Shown here: piece by piece, positions 34,368-58,914 of the stretch
Layout of the letters: each line of letters opens with the position of its first letter
Position numbering within the stretch: position 1 is the first letter of the stretch
Notes under the pieces: generated by a model
The model's database searches: none
What the model saw: only the letters and a program-made list of their open reading frames with translations
What the model was told of the DNA's origin: nothing
Position numbers and translations under genes: made by a program
Source of the DNA: SAR202 cluster bacterium
GTDB taxonomy: Bacteria; Chloroflexota; Dehalococcoidia; Lucifugimonadales; GCA-2719675
Assembly (NCBI GenBank): GCA_009392295.1
Contig: VFGW01000006.1
Coordinates: 62,001-126,000, forward strand
Length of the DNA stretch: 64,000 nucleotides
Reading direction: 5' to 3'

Positions 34368-35816
34368 ATGACACAAACTAGAATAGACGCAAAAACATTT
34401 AGACAATTATTTTTAGATGATTTTATTATCGAAAGATCAATAAATATTTCAAAATCATTACATTCTCCTGAACCAAAAGGCACTGTTTTAACCGGTGATC
34501 AAACCTTTCAACAAGTAGGTGTACAAACCAGATCAGCACCTCAATGGAATTCTCAAAAACAAATTTGGGAATGGTTTTACTGGGCATACTATGACAATAA
34601 TACAGATGCTAGAAAAGATCATTATGCAATATCAAAAGATGGAATCAATTGGGAAACTCCTAATCTAGGATTATATGAATTTAATGGAGCAAAAAATATT
34701 CCATTTGACATATCAGATAATCCTATAGCTTATGGTGACTATATGTACCATATCTTAAGAGATGAAAATGAAGAAAACCCTGATAAAAGATATAAGGGGT
34801 TCTTTGGAGCAAGTGGTAGAAAAGTTGGATTCTCACCAAATGGATTAGAATGGACATTTCCTAATATTCCAAAAATTCCTAGTTATGATGAATCACATTT
34901 AACATATGATGAGCAATCAAATCAATTTATTGCATCCGTAAAACTTCATACTGAATGGGGAAGATCTATATTTCTAACTAAAAGTGATAATTTTCTTGAA
35001 TGGAGTACTCCAAAATTAATATTCCATTCTGATGAAATAGATAACCAAAATAGAATCAAAAGAATTCAATTTGCAGCAGATCATCCAGAATATCTTGCTC
35101 CACCTGTGATTGAAGATAATGGGTATATTGCTCAAGTTTACCAAATGGCTATAATGCCATACCAAGGAATATATGTTGGATTTCCATTAATGTTTAACCC
35201 TGCTGGACCAAGTAAAAATAATTTCACTGGATTAAACCAAACCGAATTAACAGTCTCAAGGGATCTTGAAAATTGGGATAGGGTAGCAAATCGAGAACTG
35301 TTTTTAGGCATAGAAAAATACGACACTAAAAACTTTGGTTATCAACAAATCTTGCCTACAAGTAGACCCATCATAAAAGATAATGGAGAAATTTGGGTTT
35401 ACTATAATGCATTTAGATTTAGAGGATTACCCGAACAATTCTCTAAACCATTCCAAAAATTTATTAAATCAAATCAAAAAAGTGCTATATGTTTAGCTAC
35501 ATTAAGACCAGATGGCTTCGTATCTTTAGATGCTAAAAATCAAGGTATTGTTATTACTAAACCTATAAAAATTGATGACAAATCATCAATTCATATCAAT
35601 GTTGATTCAGCAAATGGATATTTAGCTGCTGAAATATTAGATCCAGTATCTATGGAGCCTTTGTCTGGATATACATTTGAAAATTGTGAAAAAATATCTG
35701 AAGATTCTACTAACAAAAAAATTAACTGGAATAATACAGACAAAATAAATACTGAAACAGTGAGACTAAAATTTATATTAGAAAAATCTAGCTTATACTC
35801 CTTCTGGATTAAGTAA
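34368..35816 (+). CDS. Five-bladed propeller glycosidase-like protein (GH32/43-like), copy A
   Basis: The 482 residues carry repeated blade motifs such as HYAISKDGINWETP, VGFSPNGLEWTFP, SIFLTKSDNFLEWS and LTVSRDLENWDR, in which a Trp-containing strand closes each blade; this is the GH32/GH43/GH62-type five-bladed propeller. A C-terminal sandwich piece (AEILDPVSMEPLSGYTFENC) resembles that of GH32. A short Asp-containing N-terminal motif (QLFLDDFIIER) could be the nucleophile site. No signal peptide is seen, so it would work in the cytoplasm or be exported another way. It is followed 25 bp later by paralogue B. Confidence 0.65.
   Translation: MTQTRIDAKTFRQLFLDDFIIERSINISKSLHSPEPKGTVLTGDQTFQQVGVQTRSAPQWNSQKQIWEWFYWAYYDNNTDARKDHYAISKDGINWETPNLGLYEFNGAKNIPFDISDNPIAYGDYMYHILRDENEENPDKRYKGFFGASGRKVGFSPNGLEWTFPNIPKIPSYDESHLTYDEQSNQFIASVKLHTEWGRSIFLTKSDNFLEWSTPKLIFHSDEIDNQNRIKRIQFAADHPEYLAPPVIEDNGYIAQVYQMAIMPYQGIYVGFPLMFNPAGPSKNNFTGLNQTELTVSRDLENWDRVANRELFLGIEKYDTKNFGYQQILPTSRPIIKDNGEIWVYYNAFRFRGLPEQFSKPFQKFIKSNQKSAICLATLRPDGFVSLDAKNQGIVITKPIKIDDKSSIHINVDSANGYLAAEILDPVSMEPLSGYTFENCEKISEDSTNKKINWNNTDKINTETVRLKFILEKSSLYSFWIK
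35671..35723 (+). repeat. 53-nt identical tract, copy A
   Basis: The stretch beginning TATACATTTGAAAATTGTGA is identical, including third codon positions, to 37159-37211 in the neighbouring paralogue. It codes for the YTFENCEKISEDSTNKK segment of the C-terminal sandwich. Confidence 0.85.
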
Positions 35817-35828
35817 GTGTAACTATAA

Positions 35829-35840
35829 AGGAATATTCCT
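35829..35840 (+). promoter_or_regulatory. Palindromic ribosome-binding site of copy B
   Basis: AGGAATATTCCT is a perfect 12-nt palindrome immediately before the GTG start of the second glycosidase gene. The AGGA half serves as the ribosome site and could pair with TCCT in a 4-bp hairpin, reducing initiation. Confidence 0.3.
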
Positions 35841-35841
35841 A

Positions 35842-37305
35842 GTGAATAATGAACCCATTGATACAAAAAAATATAAACAATTATTTTTGGATAATTTTGC
35901 AATAGAAAGATCTAGTAATGTTTCACAAACACTACACCAACCCGACCCCCAAGGACCTGTATTAGAAGCAAATTCTAATTTCAACCAAACAGGCACTCAA
36001 ACTAGATGTTCGCCTCAATGGAATTCACAAAAAAAAGCTTGGGAATGGTGGTATTGGGCATTTTATGGTGAGGTAGCTGAAGCTAGAAAATGTCATTATG
36101 CAATTTCAAAAGATGGAATCAATTGGGAAACCCCTGATCTAGGATTATATGAATTCAATGGAGCAGGTAATATACCTTGGGATATACCTGGAGAACCAAC
36201 TTCTGATGGTGATTATCTATATCATGTAATATTGGATGAGTCATCACAAAACAAAAAAGAAAAATACAAAGGATTATTTGGTACTCTACATAGAAAAATT
36301 GGAATTTCTTCAGATGGATTGAAATGGGAATTTCCTGATATTCCAAAAATTCCATCCCATGACGAATCTCATTTGACTTTTGATGAACAATCAAATCAAT
36401 ATATTGCTTCCATAAAACATGAAACACAATGGGGACGTTCAGTATATTTATCTACCAGCAAGAATTTTTATGAATGGACTGAACCAAAACTGATTTTTCA
36501 CACTGATGAAATAGATAACGAAAATAGAATTAAAAGAATCCAATTTGCTACTAATCATCCAGAATACTTATCTCCAGAGATAATTGATGAAACAGCAGGT
36601 GGATATACCGCTCAAGTCTACAATATGGCTATAATGCCTTATCATGGAATATATATCGGTTTCCCTCTGATTTTTAACCCCTCTGGACCAAGTAGAGGTA
36701 ATCATGACGGATTAAATTTAACTGAACTAACAGTATCTAGAGATCTTCATAAATGGGATAGAGTAGCAAACCGAGAACTATTTTTAGGCCTAGAAAAATG
36801 GAAATGGGATGGCAGTAATTATGCAACTGCACAAAATTTAATTACTGGAAGACCTATTATCAAAGAGGATGGCGAAATTTGGATTTACTATAACGGACTT
36901 CGATTCAGAGGACATCCAAATTCCCCTTCAGATAAAATGAATGCATTTTTACAAACACATAAAAAGATGACTGGGATTTGTTTAGCAAAACTAAGAGCAG
37001 ATGGTTTCGTTTCAATGGACGCAAAAAAACAAGGGATTATTATAACTAAACCAATAAAAATAAATCAGTCAAAATCTATCCATGTCAATATTGATTCAAC
37101 TGCTGGATATTTTGCTGCAGAAATACTAGACCCTATATCTATGGAACCATTACCTGGCTATACATTTGAAAATTGTGAAAAAATATCTGAAGATTCTACT
37201 AACAAAAAAATCAATTGGAACACTACTGAAAAAATAAATACTAAAACAGTGAGAATAAAATTTATTTTGGAAAAATCTAGCTTATACTCTTTCTGGACAA
37301 GGTGA
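35842..37305 (+). CDS. Five-bladed propeller glycosidase-like protein (GH32/43-like), copy B
   Basis: This 487-residue protein is a tandem paralogue of the upstream gene, with about two thirds identity by eye and the same blade motifs (HYAISKDGINWETP, IGISSDGLKWEFP, LTVSRDLHKWDR) and C-terminal sandwich. The start is GTG. The 3' ends of the two genes share a 53-nt stretch without a single difference, although the genes otherwise differ at many silent positions. Substrates may differ slightly: the third-blade and near-C-terminal loops (KWKWDGSNYATAQN here versus KYDTKNFGYQQ in copy A) are the most variable. Confidence 0.65.
   Translation: MNNEPIDTKKYKQLFLDNFAIERSSNVSQTLHQPDPQGPVLEANSNFNQTGTQTRCSPQWNSQKKAWEWWYWAFYGEVAEARKCHYAISKDGINWETPDLGLYEFNGAGNIPWDIPGEPTSDGDYLYHVILDESSQNKKEKYKGLFGTLHRKIGISSDGLKWEFPDIPKIPSHDESHLTFDEQSNQYIASIKHETQWGRSVYLSTSKNFYEWTEPKLIFHTDEIDNENRIKRIQFATNHPEYLSPEIIDETAGGYTAQVYNMAIMPYHGIYIGFPLIFNPSGPSRGNHDGLNLTELTVSRDLHKWDRVANRELFLGLEKWKWDGSNYATAQNLITGRPIIKEDGEIWIYYNGLRFRGHPNSPSDKMNAFLQTHKKMTGICLAKLRADGFVSMDAKKQGIIITKPIKINQSKSIHVNIDSTAGYFAAEILDPISMEPLPGYTFENCEKISEDSTNKKINWNTTEKINTKTVRIKFILEKSSLYSFWTR
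37159..37211 (+). repeat. 53-nt identical tract, copy B
   Basis: This is the partner of 35671-35723 in the second paralogue. Sequence before and after it diverges at several silent sites. Confidence 0.85.
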
Positions 37306-53075: not shown

Positions 53076-54221
53076 ATGAGTACTGAAGATTCAATTGAGT
53101 TAAAAAAGGGACTGAAAAACGTCTACTTTGACAAAACAAGTATTAGTGATATTGATGGAAAAAATGGCTTCTTAAGCTATCGTGGTTACAATATCGACGA
53201 TTTAGCTACCAGTTCTACATTTGAAGAAGTTTGTTTCCTATTACTGTATAAGCATTTACCAAATCAATCCGAATTAAAAAAATTCACCAATCAACTCAAT
53301 GAAATCGACCATATTCCCAAAGTTGCACTTGATGTAATTTATAGTCTCAAAGAATCTCATCCAATGGATGTACTTCAATCAGCAATTTCAACCATTGGGT
53401 CTGCCGAAAAAAAACCTCCTGTTTTTAAATATGATTCAACTATAGATATGGGTATCAAATTAATTGCATATACTCCTATGATAGTTGCAGCTCACCATAG
53501 AATCAGAAATCAACAAACACCCATTAATCCACAAAAGAAATTTTCATTAGCAGAAAATTTCTTGCATATGTTATTCAATACAACTCCTACAGAATCAGAG
53601 TCAATTGCTATAGACAAAGACTTCATATTACATGCTGAACACGGAGTAAACGCATCTACTTTTTCAGGAAGAGTTTCTGCTTCAACTGGAGCAGATTTTT
53701 TCTCTTGTATGACTGCTGCAATTTCAGCTCTAAAAGGCCCTAAGCATGGGGGTGCAGCTGAAGGTGTAATGAAAATGGCAAACGAAATTGGAAATGAATC
53801 TAATGCTAACGCTTATGTTGAAAAAACTTTACAAAATGGAGAAAGAATTATGGGTTTTGGTCACCCCGTATATAAAACAACAGACCCTAGATCAAAACAC
53901 CTTAAAATAGCTGCAAAAGAGTTAGCAAAAATCAAAGGACAACCTAAATGGTTTTCTATTATTCAAGCAGTCGTAGATACTGACGCTATGCAAAGTAGAG
54001 CTCGAATAGGCCTCCATCCAAATGTTGACTTATGGGCAGGTGCATCTTATTCATTATTAGATATTCCAGAAGATTTATTTGTACCCATTTTTTGTATCGG
54101 TAGAATACCAGGATGGGTTGCTCACATTATTGAACAATATGAAAAAAAAGATATTCTAAGGCCTAGGCTTTTATATTCTGGAAAAAACAACATTAAATAT
54201 AAAAAATTAGAAGATAGATGA
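53076..54221 (+). CDS. gltA: Citrate synthase (type II short form / 2-methylcitrate synthase family)
   Basis: The 381-residue enzyme has GLKNVYFDKTSISDIDGKNG and LSYRGYNIDDLA at the N-terminus, HAEHGVNASTFSGRVSAST, the catalytic His regions ALKGPKHGGAAEGVM and MGFGHPVYKTTDPRS, and the Asp region HPNVDLWAGAS. It condenses oxaloacetate and acetyl-CoA; propionyl-CoA cannot be excluded from sequence alone. The track starts at a GTG (53067); I prefer the ATG three codons later, though neither has a clear ribosome site. The small zinc protein follows after 27 bp. Confidence 0.93.
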   Translation: MSTEDSIELKKGLKNVYFDKTSISDIDGKNGFLSYRGYNIDDLATSSTFEEVCFLLLYKHLPNQSELKKFTNQLNEIDHIPKVALDVIYSLKESHPMDVLQSAISTIGSAEKKPPVFKYDSTIDMGIKLIAYTPMIVAAHHRIRNQQTPINPQKKFSLAENFLHMLFNTTPTESESIAIDKDFILHAEHGVNASTFSGRVSASTGADFFSCMTAAISALKGPKHGGAAEGVMKMANEIGNESNANAYVEKTLQNGERIMGFGHPVYKTTDPRSKHLKIAAKELAKIKGQPKWFSIIQAVVDTDAMQSRARIGLHPNVDLWAGASYSLLDIPEDLFVPIFCIGRIPGWVAHIIEQYEKKDILRPRLLYSGKNNIKYKKLEDR

Positions 54222-55667: not shown

Positions 55668-56174
55668 TTATAAACCATCAACCACTTCAATCAAATCTTT
55701 TACATTAAAATTTAAATCAACAATACCATAACCATTAGGCCCTACAACTGATTTATATTCATACATATTCACTTGCCGAACGATTCCATTTTTATCAATA
55801 ATCACAGCTGATCTATCAGCAGTTCCTATTGAAGAATTAAACAATTTATACTTCTTTGTTACTTCGCCATGAGGATAAAAATCACTTAACAATTGCACTG
55901 GATAACCTAGGGATGGTCCAAATGAAAGATTGTAAGCAGCCAAGGCAGCTGTTGAGTCACAACTAATACCCAAAACTTGGGTATCTCTTCTTGAAAATTC
56001 GGATTGAGATTTCCTTAATTCCAAGATTTGGCTAGTTCAACCATCAGTAAAAGCCAAAACAAAAAAAACAAGAATCACATTTTTTTTACCAAGAAAATTT
56101 TCCAATGAAACAGCTTTTCTATTATGATCCATTAATGTAAACAATGGTGCTTTATTACCTGGTGAAAGACTCAT
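55668..56174 (-). CDS. AhpE-like peroxiredoxin with in-frame TGA at the peroxidatic Cys: likely selenoprotein
   Basis: The track lists two ORFs, 56037-56237 and 55668-56024, but both lie in one frame and are joined across a single TGA (56037-56039). I start at the ATG at 56174, which has GGAGG just upstream. Reading TGA as Sec46 gives 168 residues: LSPGNKAPLFTLMDHNRKAV, then VLAFTDG-U-TSQILELRK in place of the usual LAFTPVCTSEL, LGISCDSTAALAAY (Cys72), and GTADRSAVIIDKNGIVRQV with the conserved Arg121. The family length and both halves are intact, with no decay elsewhere. Thiol-dependent peroxide reduction is the expected role. It follows valS by 16 bp on the same strand. No sel genes are in the window. 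Confidence 0.85.
56001..56042 (-). promoter_or_regulatory. Candidate bacterial SECIS element on the TGA
   Basis: In the mRNA, GGUUGA (which includes the UGA) can pair with UCAA-U-CC 30-36 nt downstream with one bulged U, and inside it UCUU pairs with AAGG around a GGAAUU loop 15-20 nt after the UGA. Bacterial SECIS hairpins place a G-starting apical loop at about this distance. A competing small hairpin, CCAA-AUC-UUGG, overlaps it. The fold was made by eye. Confidence 0.4.
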
Positions 56175-56190
56175 TAAAACCTCCAATATT

Positions 56191-58914
56191 TCAGAAACTG
56201 ATTTCAGTTTCAAAATTAGAATATCCATTACTTTCAACTACAACAATTTCTATATTTTCAGCTCTTGCTGCTGCACGAATATCATTTAAGACCAATGATA
56301 ATTCTAATTTAACTTTTTCATCTCCAAAAATCTTAACATTGTCCAATTGAGAACCCAAACCAATACCTGAATTATTTTTAGCTTTCCTAATAGAAGAAAT
56401 TGCAAGACAAGCTGAATTAAATGAATTGATATTTTTTGGTTCCCCTACTACAGAAAAATCATACTTCGAATTCTTATTTAAATCTGAAAATCCTTCTGGC
56501 AAATCCATTTGGAAATTTGAATCAAAATCAACAATAGGCCAAGGTGAAATATGAATTGATTGGCACCCAACTTCATCCGCAAAAACCCAAGACCAAATTT
56601 CATCGGTTATGGTAGGTAAAAATGGTGAGAAAAGCCTAAGAAAAACATTAAGCGCAAATCTTAAAGTTGATAATCCCGAAGAACGTCCAATAATATCTGA
56701 ATCATCTCTAATTCTACCTTTCACTAATTCTATATAATTATCTGTAAATCCTTTCCAAAAAAAATCTTCAATATTCTGTAATGCTATAGCAAAATCATAT
56801 TTTTCAAAAGCTATTGTGGATTTTCGAACAATTTCCTTTAATTCGTTAATAAAAGCTAAATCTAGTTCGTGAGATATTTCACCTTCAAAACCTTCCTGAG
56901 ACAGAACAAATTTAGATGCATTGAATAATTTTGTTACTAATTTACCTCCAATTTTAAACATAGATTCATCATATGCCATATCCATACCCAATCTAGCATT
57001 GCTTGCCCAATATCTCACAGCATCAGAACCATATTTCTCTAAAAGAGGAATTGGAGTCACCACATTCCCTTTAGACTTACTCATCTTTTTTCGATCTGGA
57101 TCCAAAATAAATCCTGATATAGCTGCATTTTTCCATGGAATACTATTTTGATGCAACATAGATTTAACTATTGTGTAAAAAGCCCAAGTACGAATAATTT
57201 CATGTGCTTGGGGCCTCAAATCCATGGGGTAAAGCAAATCCATCCTATCATTTTCCTCACCCCAATTAGCTACAATTTGCGGAGTTATTGATGATGTAAA
57301 CCAAGTGTCAAGAACGTCTTTCTCAGCATCAAAACCATTTGGTTGACCACGCTGAGATTCATCAAAGCCAGGAGGATTTTTTTCAACTGGATCAATTGGC
57401 AAAATAGATTCATCCGCTAATATATAATCATCATAAATTCTATTGCCATTTTTATCTAATTTGTACCAAATTGGAATTGGAACACCAAAATATCTTTGTC
57501 GACTAATCGACCAATCATGAGCTAAACCATTCGTCCAATTAGAATACCTTTTTTCCATAAACTCAGGATGCCACTCAACTTTTGAACCTTGTTTTATAAG
57601 TTGTTTCTTTTTATCCATGATTTTCACAAACCATTGTCTGGAAGTTAAATATTCAATAGGGTTATCACCCTTTTCATAAAATCTAACTGCATGTTCAATA
57701 ACACGTGGCTCAGATTTTAGAGGTGGAGAATTACCGTTATAAGAACTTTTTGGATCTTTAAGTATTTCCACAATCAAAGACTTTGCTTGATAAATTTTCT
57801 TACCAACAATTTTTTGATAATTCAAATTAGCAAGATTATGATTTAAACTAAACCATACTGAATCATTAGAATCTTGAAAATTAATATCAATTACTCTGCC
57901 TGATTGATCTATCATTTGTTTAAGCATTAATTTTTCTTCCCGCCACCATTCTACATCGACTTGATCGCCAAAGGTACATACCATCAATATGCCTGTACCT
58001 TTCTCAGGATCAACTTTTTCACTAGGGAAAATAGGGACTTCAGAAAAAAAACACGGTGTAATTGCTTTCTTCCCAAATAGATGTTTATATCTTAAATCAT
58101 CTGGGTGAGCAGTAACCCCAACGCAAGCAGGTAATAATTCTGGTCTAGTAGTAGAAATAATAAATGATTCATTCTCTTGATTACCCAATACTGAAAACTC
58201 TATATCGTGAAATGCACCATTTTTAATTCTATCTTCTACTTCTGCTTGGGCAACTGCTGTTTGAAAGTCCACATCCCACATTGTTGGCAATTCGTGATTA
58301 TAAATGTGACCTTTAGCATATAGATCTAAAAAGCTTCTTTGTGAAATCCTTCTTGATTTATTATCAATTGTAGAATATTCTTCTAACCAATCAATTGACA
58401 AACCTAATCGTTCAAATAAATTCTTAAATGCTTTTTCATCTTCTTCAGTAACTTTGTGGCAAAGTTCAATAAAATTCCCTCTTGAAATTTCTAATTGTTT
58501 TTTAGAGTCTAAATTTAATCTCTTTTTTTCTAAATCAACATCAAAATTCTTAATATATTTTATATCTGGATTAGTCCGTACATTGAAAAAATTTTGCACC
58601 CTACGTTCTGTTGGTAATCCATTGTCATCCCAACCCATAGGGTAAACAACATTCCAAGAATTCATCCTTTTATATCTTGCAATCAAATCTTGGTGAGTAT
58701 ACGAAAAAATATGGCCTTGATGTAATTCACCACTAGCAGTTGGTGGTGGTGAATCTATAACATAATTTCTCTCTCTTGGAGAAGAACGATCATATTTGTG
58801 AATTTCAAATTCATCCCATTTATTGCGCCAAGAAACATCTTTAGTAGCAAAATCAAATCTCTTGCTAATAGCATCGGGATTAATAAAATTAACTTTTTTA
58901 TTTCTCATTTTCAT
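56191..58914 (-). CDS. valS: Valyl-tRNA synthetase
   Basis: This is a class I synthetase of 907 residues. The HIGH motif appears in SPPPTASGELHQGHIFSYTHQD, GWDDNGLPTERRVQ follows, the editing domain is in the middle (ISTTRPELLPACVGVTAHPDD), the WFTS motif is DVLDTWFTSSITPQ and the KMSKS site is RKKMSKSKGNVVTP. An anticodon domain and a short C-terminal tail complete it. It charges tRNA-Val and edits threonine. The peroxiredoxin gene begins 16 bp after its stop and probably shares its mRNA. No T-box leader fits in the 126 bp upstream. Confidence 0.96.
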   Translation of the reverse strand: MKMRNKKVNFINPDAISKRFDFATKDVSWRNKWDEFEIHKYDRSSPRERNYVIDSPPPTASGELHQGHIFSYTHQDLIARYKRMNSWNVVYPMGWDDNGLPTERRVQNFFNVRTNPDIKYIKNFDVDLEKKRLNLDSKKQLEISRGNFIELCHKVTEEDEKAFKNLFERLGLSIDWLEEYSTIDNKSRRISQRSFLDLYAKGHIYNHELPTMWDVDFQTAVAQAEVEDRIKNGAFHDIEFSVLGNQENESFIISTTRPELLPACVGVTAHPDDLRYKHLFGKKAITPCFFSEVPIFPSEKVDPEKGTGILMVCTFGDQVDVEWWREEKLMLKQMIDQSGRVIDINFQDSNDSVWFSLNHNLANLNYQKIVGKKIYQAKSLIVEILKDPKSSYNGNSPPLKSEPRVIEHAVRFYEKGDNPIEYLTSRQWFVKIMDKKKQLIKQGSKVEWHPEFMEKRYSNWTNGLAHDWSISRQRYFGVPIPIWYKLDKNGNRIYDDYILADESILPIDPVEKNPPGFDESQRGQPNGFDAEKDVLDTWFTSSITPQIVANWGEENDRMDLLYPMDLRPQAHEIIRTWAFYTIVKSMLHQNSIPWKNAAISGFILDPDRKKMSKSKGNVVTPIPLLEKYGSDAVRYWASNARLGMDMAYDESMFKIGGKLVTKLFNASKFVLSQEGFEGEISHELDLAFINELKEIVRKSTIAFEKYDFAIALQNIEDFFWKGFTDNYIELVKGRIRDDSDIIGRSSGLSTLRFALNVFLRLFSPFLPTITDEIWSWVFADEVGCQSIHISPWPIVDFDSNFQMDLPEGFSDLNKNSKYDFSVVGEPKNINSFNSACLAISSIRKAKNNSGIGLGSQLDNVKIFGDEKVKLELSLVLNDIRAAARAENIEIVVVESNGYSNFETEISF

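Follow-up and report, generated by a model that had tools for sequence, protein, structure and literature searches.

A probable selenocysteine-containing AhpE-type peroxiredoxin in a SAR202 cluster bacterium and its distribution within the order

A gene on the minus strand of a SAR202 cluster bacterium very probably specifies a functional AhpE-type peroxiredoxin, with its UGA codon 46 decoded as selenocysteine (Sec). It was found in the window, i.e. the whole stretch of 64,000 nucleotides that was analysed (C6:62001-126000 of the host genome G000, a draft of 1.45 Mb with ~91% completeness). At the sequence level, this reading is supported by the position of the codon, the Sec machinery of the host, purifying selection, UGA throughout the family and RNA structure that only the Sec forms show; Sec insertion, activity, substrate and reductant are inferred. 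The gene belongs to a known selenoprotein family and is not a new kind, and its proline-less active site and order-wide spread are unusual. A preliminary description, made from the letters of the DNA, had proposed a selenoprotein here; it contained neither the strand (minus), nor the loss of the signature proline (V39), nor the spread through the order.

Gene structure and relation to known peroxiredoxins

The CDS (55668..56174, minus strand) encodes 168 aa and runs from an ATG (56172-56174, minus strand) to a TAA (55668-55670, minus strand), with a single in-frame TGA. When the TGA is taken as one residue, the readthrough product starts MSLSPGNKAPLFTLMDHNRKAVSLENFLGKKNVILVFFVLAFTDGUTSQ. Mechanical ORF finding yielded two fragments in one frame (56037-56237 and 55668-56024), between which only the stop codon and ACT AGC CAA ATC are located, followed by the TTG of the second ORF; the preliminary description of two same-frame ORFs split by TGA ACT AGC CAA ATC TTG agrees with these coordinates. 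A GGAGG ribosome-binding site (56180..56184, minus strand, reading CCTCC on the forward strand) lies 5 nt 5' of the ATG. Directly upstream, on the same strand and after a 16-nt gap, is a valine--tRNA ligase-like gene (56191..58914, minus strand; named from sequence features and not from a family search), with which the peroxiredoxin gene is probably co-transcribed.

Pfam analysis of the product identified an AhpC-TSA match at residues 5-134 (E 1e-26, 93.7 bits against a gathering score of 26). Codon 46 (UGA, 56037..56039, minus strand), the putative Sec codon, aligns with the peroxidatic Cys of the Cys homologues. The active-site Thr (codon 43, 56046..56048, minus strand) and Arg (codon 121, 55812..55814, minus strand) of the AhpE subfamily are both invariant in the alignment and present in every clear family member; the preliminary description had noted the conserved flanks with Arg121, the full length and the GGAGG before the ATG. 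At codon 39 (56058..56060, minus strand), Val is encoded where PxxxTxxC/U has its signature Pro, as seen in the sequence and in the alignment.

By sequence, the best solved relatives are the M. tuberculosis AhpE entries, and the TGA is aligned with their Cys. An AlphaFold2 model (mean pLDDT 89, pTM 0.87) was compared with the PDB, and the twelve best matches were all M. tuberculosis AhpE, with 32-33% identity and TM-scores of 0.84-0.86 (query length). M. tuberculosis AhpE (Rv2238c), a 1-Cys peroxiredoxin, shares the fold and the catalytic Thr and Arg with the window protein, but has Cys and Pro where the latter has Sec and Val; moreover, the C-terminal region of the window protein is ~15 residues longer, and mycothiol/mycoredoxin, the reductants of AhpE, are not known from the SAR202 host. 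Cys72 is present in the window protein, in a column that varies among C, T, V, A and S in the homologues. PrxU (NCBIfam NF040737), a thioredoxin-dependent peroxiredoxin of the same superfamily, was matched at E 4e-11; the window protein was not assigned to this equivalog because its 42.9 bits fell short of the cut-off of 270.

The Sec peroxiredoxins with the motif TxxU (pfam00578), which are bacterial and also marine, have in common with the window protein the AhpC/TSA domain, a peroxidatic position occupied by Sec and Thr three residues earlier, and differ from it in the Pro of PxxxTxxU, which is Val in the window. Twelve Sec-containing peroxiredoxins were known in 2006 (PMC1794560), 253 sequences were recorded in the Global Ocean Sampling data (PMC2398784) and 91 were listed in 2016 (PMC5029168); the earlier statement that such enzymes occur in bacteria, including marine metagenomes, refers to a long-known family (PMC1794560, PMC2398784). 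SelA and SelB co-occur in sponge symbionts of various phyla (PMC5649159). No paper combining SAR202 and selenoproteins was found in the open-licence literature, and given this scope the absence is weak.

Conservation of the UGA codon and the selenocysteine machinery

A total of 197 genomes of the order were searched for homologues, and 193 of them contained a match. One in-frame TGA was present in nearly all of the matches listed, with none in only seven of those listed. An alignment of 122 homologues, into which those lacking TGA were deliberately taken, showed TGA on exactly codon 46 of the window in 97 rows and Cys in nearly all of the others, two of the Cys rows being a different redoxin type. 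The recurrence of TGA at the peroxidatic codon is far beyond chance, and the proposed comparison of this codon among homologues gave TGA or Cys as anticipated. A SAR202 single-cell genome gave a partial match (L096), and the named relatives are Chloroflexi/Dehalococcoidia genomes. Beyond the order, Sec forms were found in other Chloroflexota, Bacillota, Nitrospirota and Zixiibacteriota, and Cys forms in Acidobacteriota and others. In one genome (G035:C118:1361-3422), a Pro-containing Cys gene and a Pro-less Sec gene of the AhpE type (L136 and L137) lie within ~2 kb of one another on opposite strands.

The same TGA codon is present in a genome of the same genus (G008) and in dozens of independent assemblies, among which are the near-complete G010 (2 contigs) and G033 (1 contig). 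The window protein and the G008 copy are 84% identical, and comparison of G000 with G008 gave a dN/dS of 0.17 before the TGA and 0.09 after it, which indicates that the part after the TGA is translated and strongly constrained. The gene neighbourhood (valine--tRNA-ligase-like gene upstream and convergent methyltransferase-like gene downstream) is kept in G008; it is not kept in G010, the protein of which is 54% identical.

The preliminary description had surmised a Sec system in the host, and all of its components were detected in the genome: selA (C20:12181-13524, 526 bits, cut-off 268), selB (C12:6847-8667, 337 bits, cut-off 242), selD (C6:13221-14147, on the contig that also contains the window and corresponding to L019:1501-2427; 344 bits, cut-off 125) and selC, the tRNA-Sec with anticodon UCA (C20:22087-22180, 70.7 bits). 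The selD gene has an in-frame TGA of its own at the active site (NCGGUASK), which makes SelD a selenoprotein as well. Since selA scored above the cut-off in 170 of the 197 genomes of the order, Sec decoding is the rule there. A second, weaker peroxiredoxin match of the host, without TGA, is located ~15 kb from the Sec gene (G000:C6:133270-133548).

A coding-potential scan of the window revealed no further convincing in-frame TGA, the candidates being ordinary gene ends or apparent antisense readings of real genes. As had been stated, TGA terminates other genes of the window, e.g. a citrate-synthase-like gene (54219-54221). Elsewhere in the window (34368-37305), two adjoining similar proteins (482 and 487 aa), the C-termini of which are nearly identical, represent an apparent tandem duplication.

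RNA structure after the UGA codon

The stems of bacterial SECIS hairpins overlap codons, and little sequence is shared between one hairpin and another; each gene was therefore compared with its own synonymous-codon shuffles, in which the protein and the codon usage were preserved, over 54 nt from the UGA. Folding was more stable in the Sec forms than in the shuffled versions (mean z -2.19, n=92, 87% below -1). The mean z of the Cys forms at the same place was -0.22 (n=22), and the same test 25, 45 and 65 codons further downstream gave values of -0.07 to -0.24; excess RNA structure right after the UGA is thus confined to the Sec forms. No consensus structure emerged from RNAalifold with either 95 or 69 ungapped sequences, for which reason per-sequence folding against shuffles and direct counting of pairs were used. 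In the lower stem of the family, numbered from the U of UGA, nt 14-21 pair with nt 45-52. This stem was formed in 76% of cells across 93 distinct Sec sequences, compared with 45-58% when slid by 1-3, 27% for Cys forms and 23% for five Cys genes nested among the Sec forms.

In the window, a putative bacterial SECIS hairpin was located at 55989..56026 (minus strand), with a stem of nt 14-21/44-51 in the same numbering, one position out of register with the family stem, and an apical stem of nt 26-28/37-39. Its folding energy is -10.6 kcal/mol, with p 0.04 for codons 0-17 and p 0.011 for codons 4-17, and dinucleotide shuffles gave z of -1.2 to -1.7. A SECIS-like hairpin just after the UGA is present at the family level, and the copy in the window is moderately significant and putative. 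No Rfam match of SECIS type was obtained in the window at gathering scores. In the bSECIS consensus, G occurs within the first two positions of the loop (PMC13188914), and the window hairpin has no G there.

Loss of the signature proline and alternative explanations

Peroxiredoxins carry the motif PxxxT(S)xxC. Among the 97 Sec homologues, the signature Pro is replaced by Val, Ile, Leu or Thr in 70, mostly in one clade. In a tree of 144 columns, 73 Pro-less rows formed one group (support 97/76) beside the Pro-containing Sec forms of the order; with many weak forks and no established root, the tree can only suggest the direction of change. One family (f23, L131-L135) is a supported Cys clade among the Sec forms in which Pro has not been regained, the SECIS-like stem is gone and four of the five genomes keep a full selA. 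Judging from its position in the tree, this clade seems to have reverted from Sec to Cys and to have lost the hairpin.

The possibility that only Sec enzymes have lost the Pro was considered and rejected, as Val is found in Cys forms of other Chloroflexota (L198, L204, L207 and L209, with YVGAFSSIC). Further Sec forms have Ala or Val for Pro (L191-L193, L200 and L215). Because both Pro-less Cys forms and Pro-less Sec forms exist elsewhere in the phylum, the loss is not exclusive to Sec forms. Val39, at position -7 of the window protein, lowers its match to PxxxTxxU but does not affect its family assignment, because the Pro lies outside the TxxU definition (PMC2398784). We suggest tentatively that the order possesses a distinct subfamily of Sec peroxiredoxins that has given up the active-site proline, nearly universal elsewhere, and has a (V/I)xxxTxxU site, that Sec possibly made the Pro dispensable, and that one family went back to Cys without Pro and without the SECIS hairpin.

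Pro loss also bears on the function of the protein. PxxxTxxU was described as "highly conserved" in Sec enzymes and crucial for catalysis in a 2026 review (PMC13188914), and loss of the whole motif in other peroxiredoxins has been taken to point to possible inactivity (PMC8945050). The window protein, with Val39, could on these grounds be a Sec-containing relative that is not a peroxidase, the missing Pro, replaced in 70 of the 97 Sec homologues, marking a redox sensor, reductase or chaperone. However, Thr43 and Arg121 are retained in every clear family member and the AhpE fold appears to be kept in the predicted model, which makes such a function unlikely.

The other explanations concern the codon itself. 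A single-base change would turn it into TGT or TGC, and the genome is a draft assembly, so an ordinary Cys peroxiredoxin might have been misread by a sequencing or assembly error; the same TGA in G008 and in dozens of independent assemblies, including G010 and G033, leaves this with hardly any probability. Standard ORF calling gives two fragments, as would be expected of a pseudogene in which a nonsense mutation had split a Cys peroxiredoxin. The preliminary description had considered a random nonsense mutation unlikely, and the dN/dS of 0.09 downstream, the retention of TGA across many families of the order, the intact Shine-Dalgarno sequence, the full length and the hairpin restricted to Sec forms make the case still firmer, a pseudogene being exceedingly improbable. 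Reading of UGA as Cys, Trp or another residue, through an altered genetic code or simple readthrough, has no specific support, although occasional misreading under selenium starvation is conceivable; with TGA ending the citrate-synthase-like gene, UGA exactly at the catalytic redox position, all Sec genes present and no other convincing in-frame TGA within the window, it is highly improbable. Taken together, the conserved TGA, purifying dN/dS, Sec-specific RNA structure and Cys revertants without the hairpin make sequencing error, pseudogene and code reassignment very unlikely.

If UGA 46 is decoded as Sec, SelB and Sec-tRNA(UCA), guided by the hairpin just after the UGA, would insert Sec instead of termination. 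The selenolate would attack hydrogen peroxide or an organic hydroperoxide held by Thr43 and Arg121, giving a selenenic acid, and an external thiol reductant would regenerate the enzyme, in which none of the Cys residues is a strictly conserved resolving Cys.

Under standard annotation, this gene and its relatives each appear as two fragments, and a likely antioxidant enzyme has therefore probably been missed in genomes of uncultured Chloroflexota. With selA so widespread, Sec decoding is a lineage-wide trait of the order. The f23 clade offers a natural Sec-to-Cys reversion with hairpin loss for study, and the proline-less active site provides a chance to test the role of the conserved proline of peroxiredoxins.
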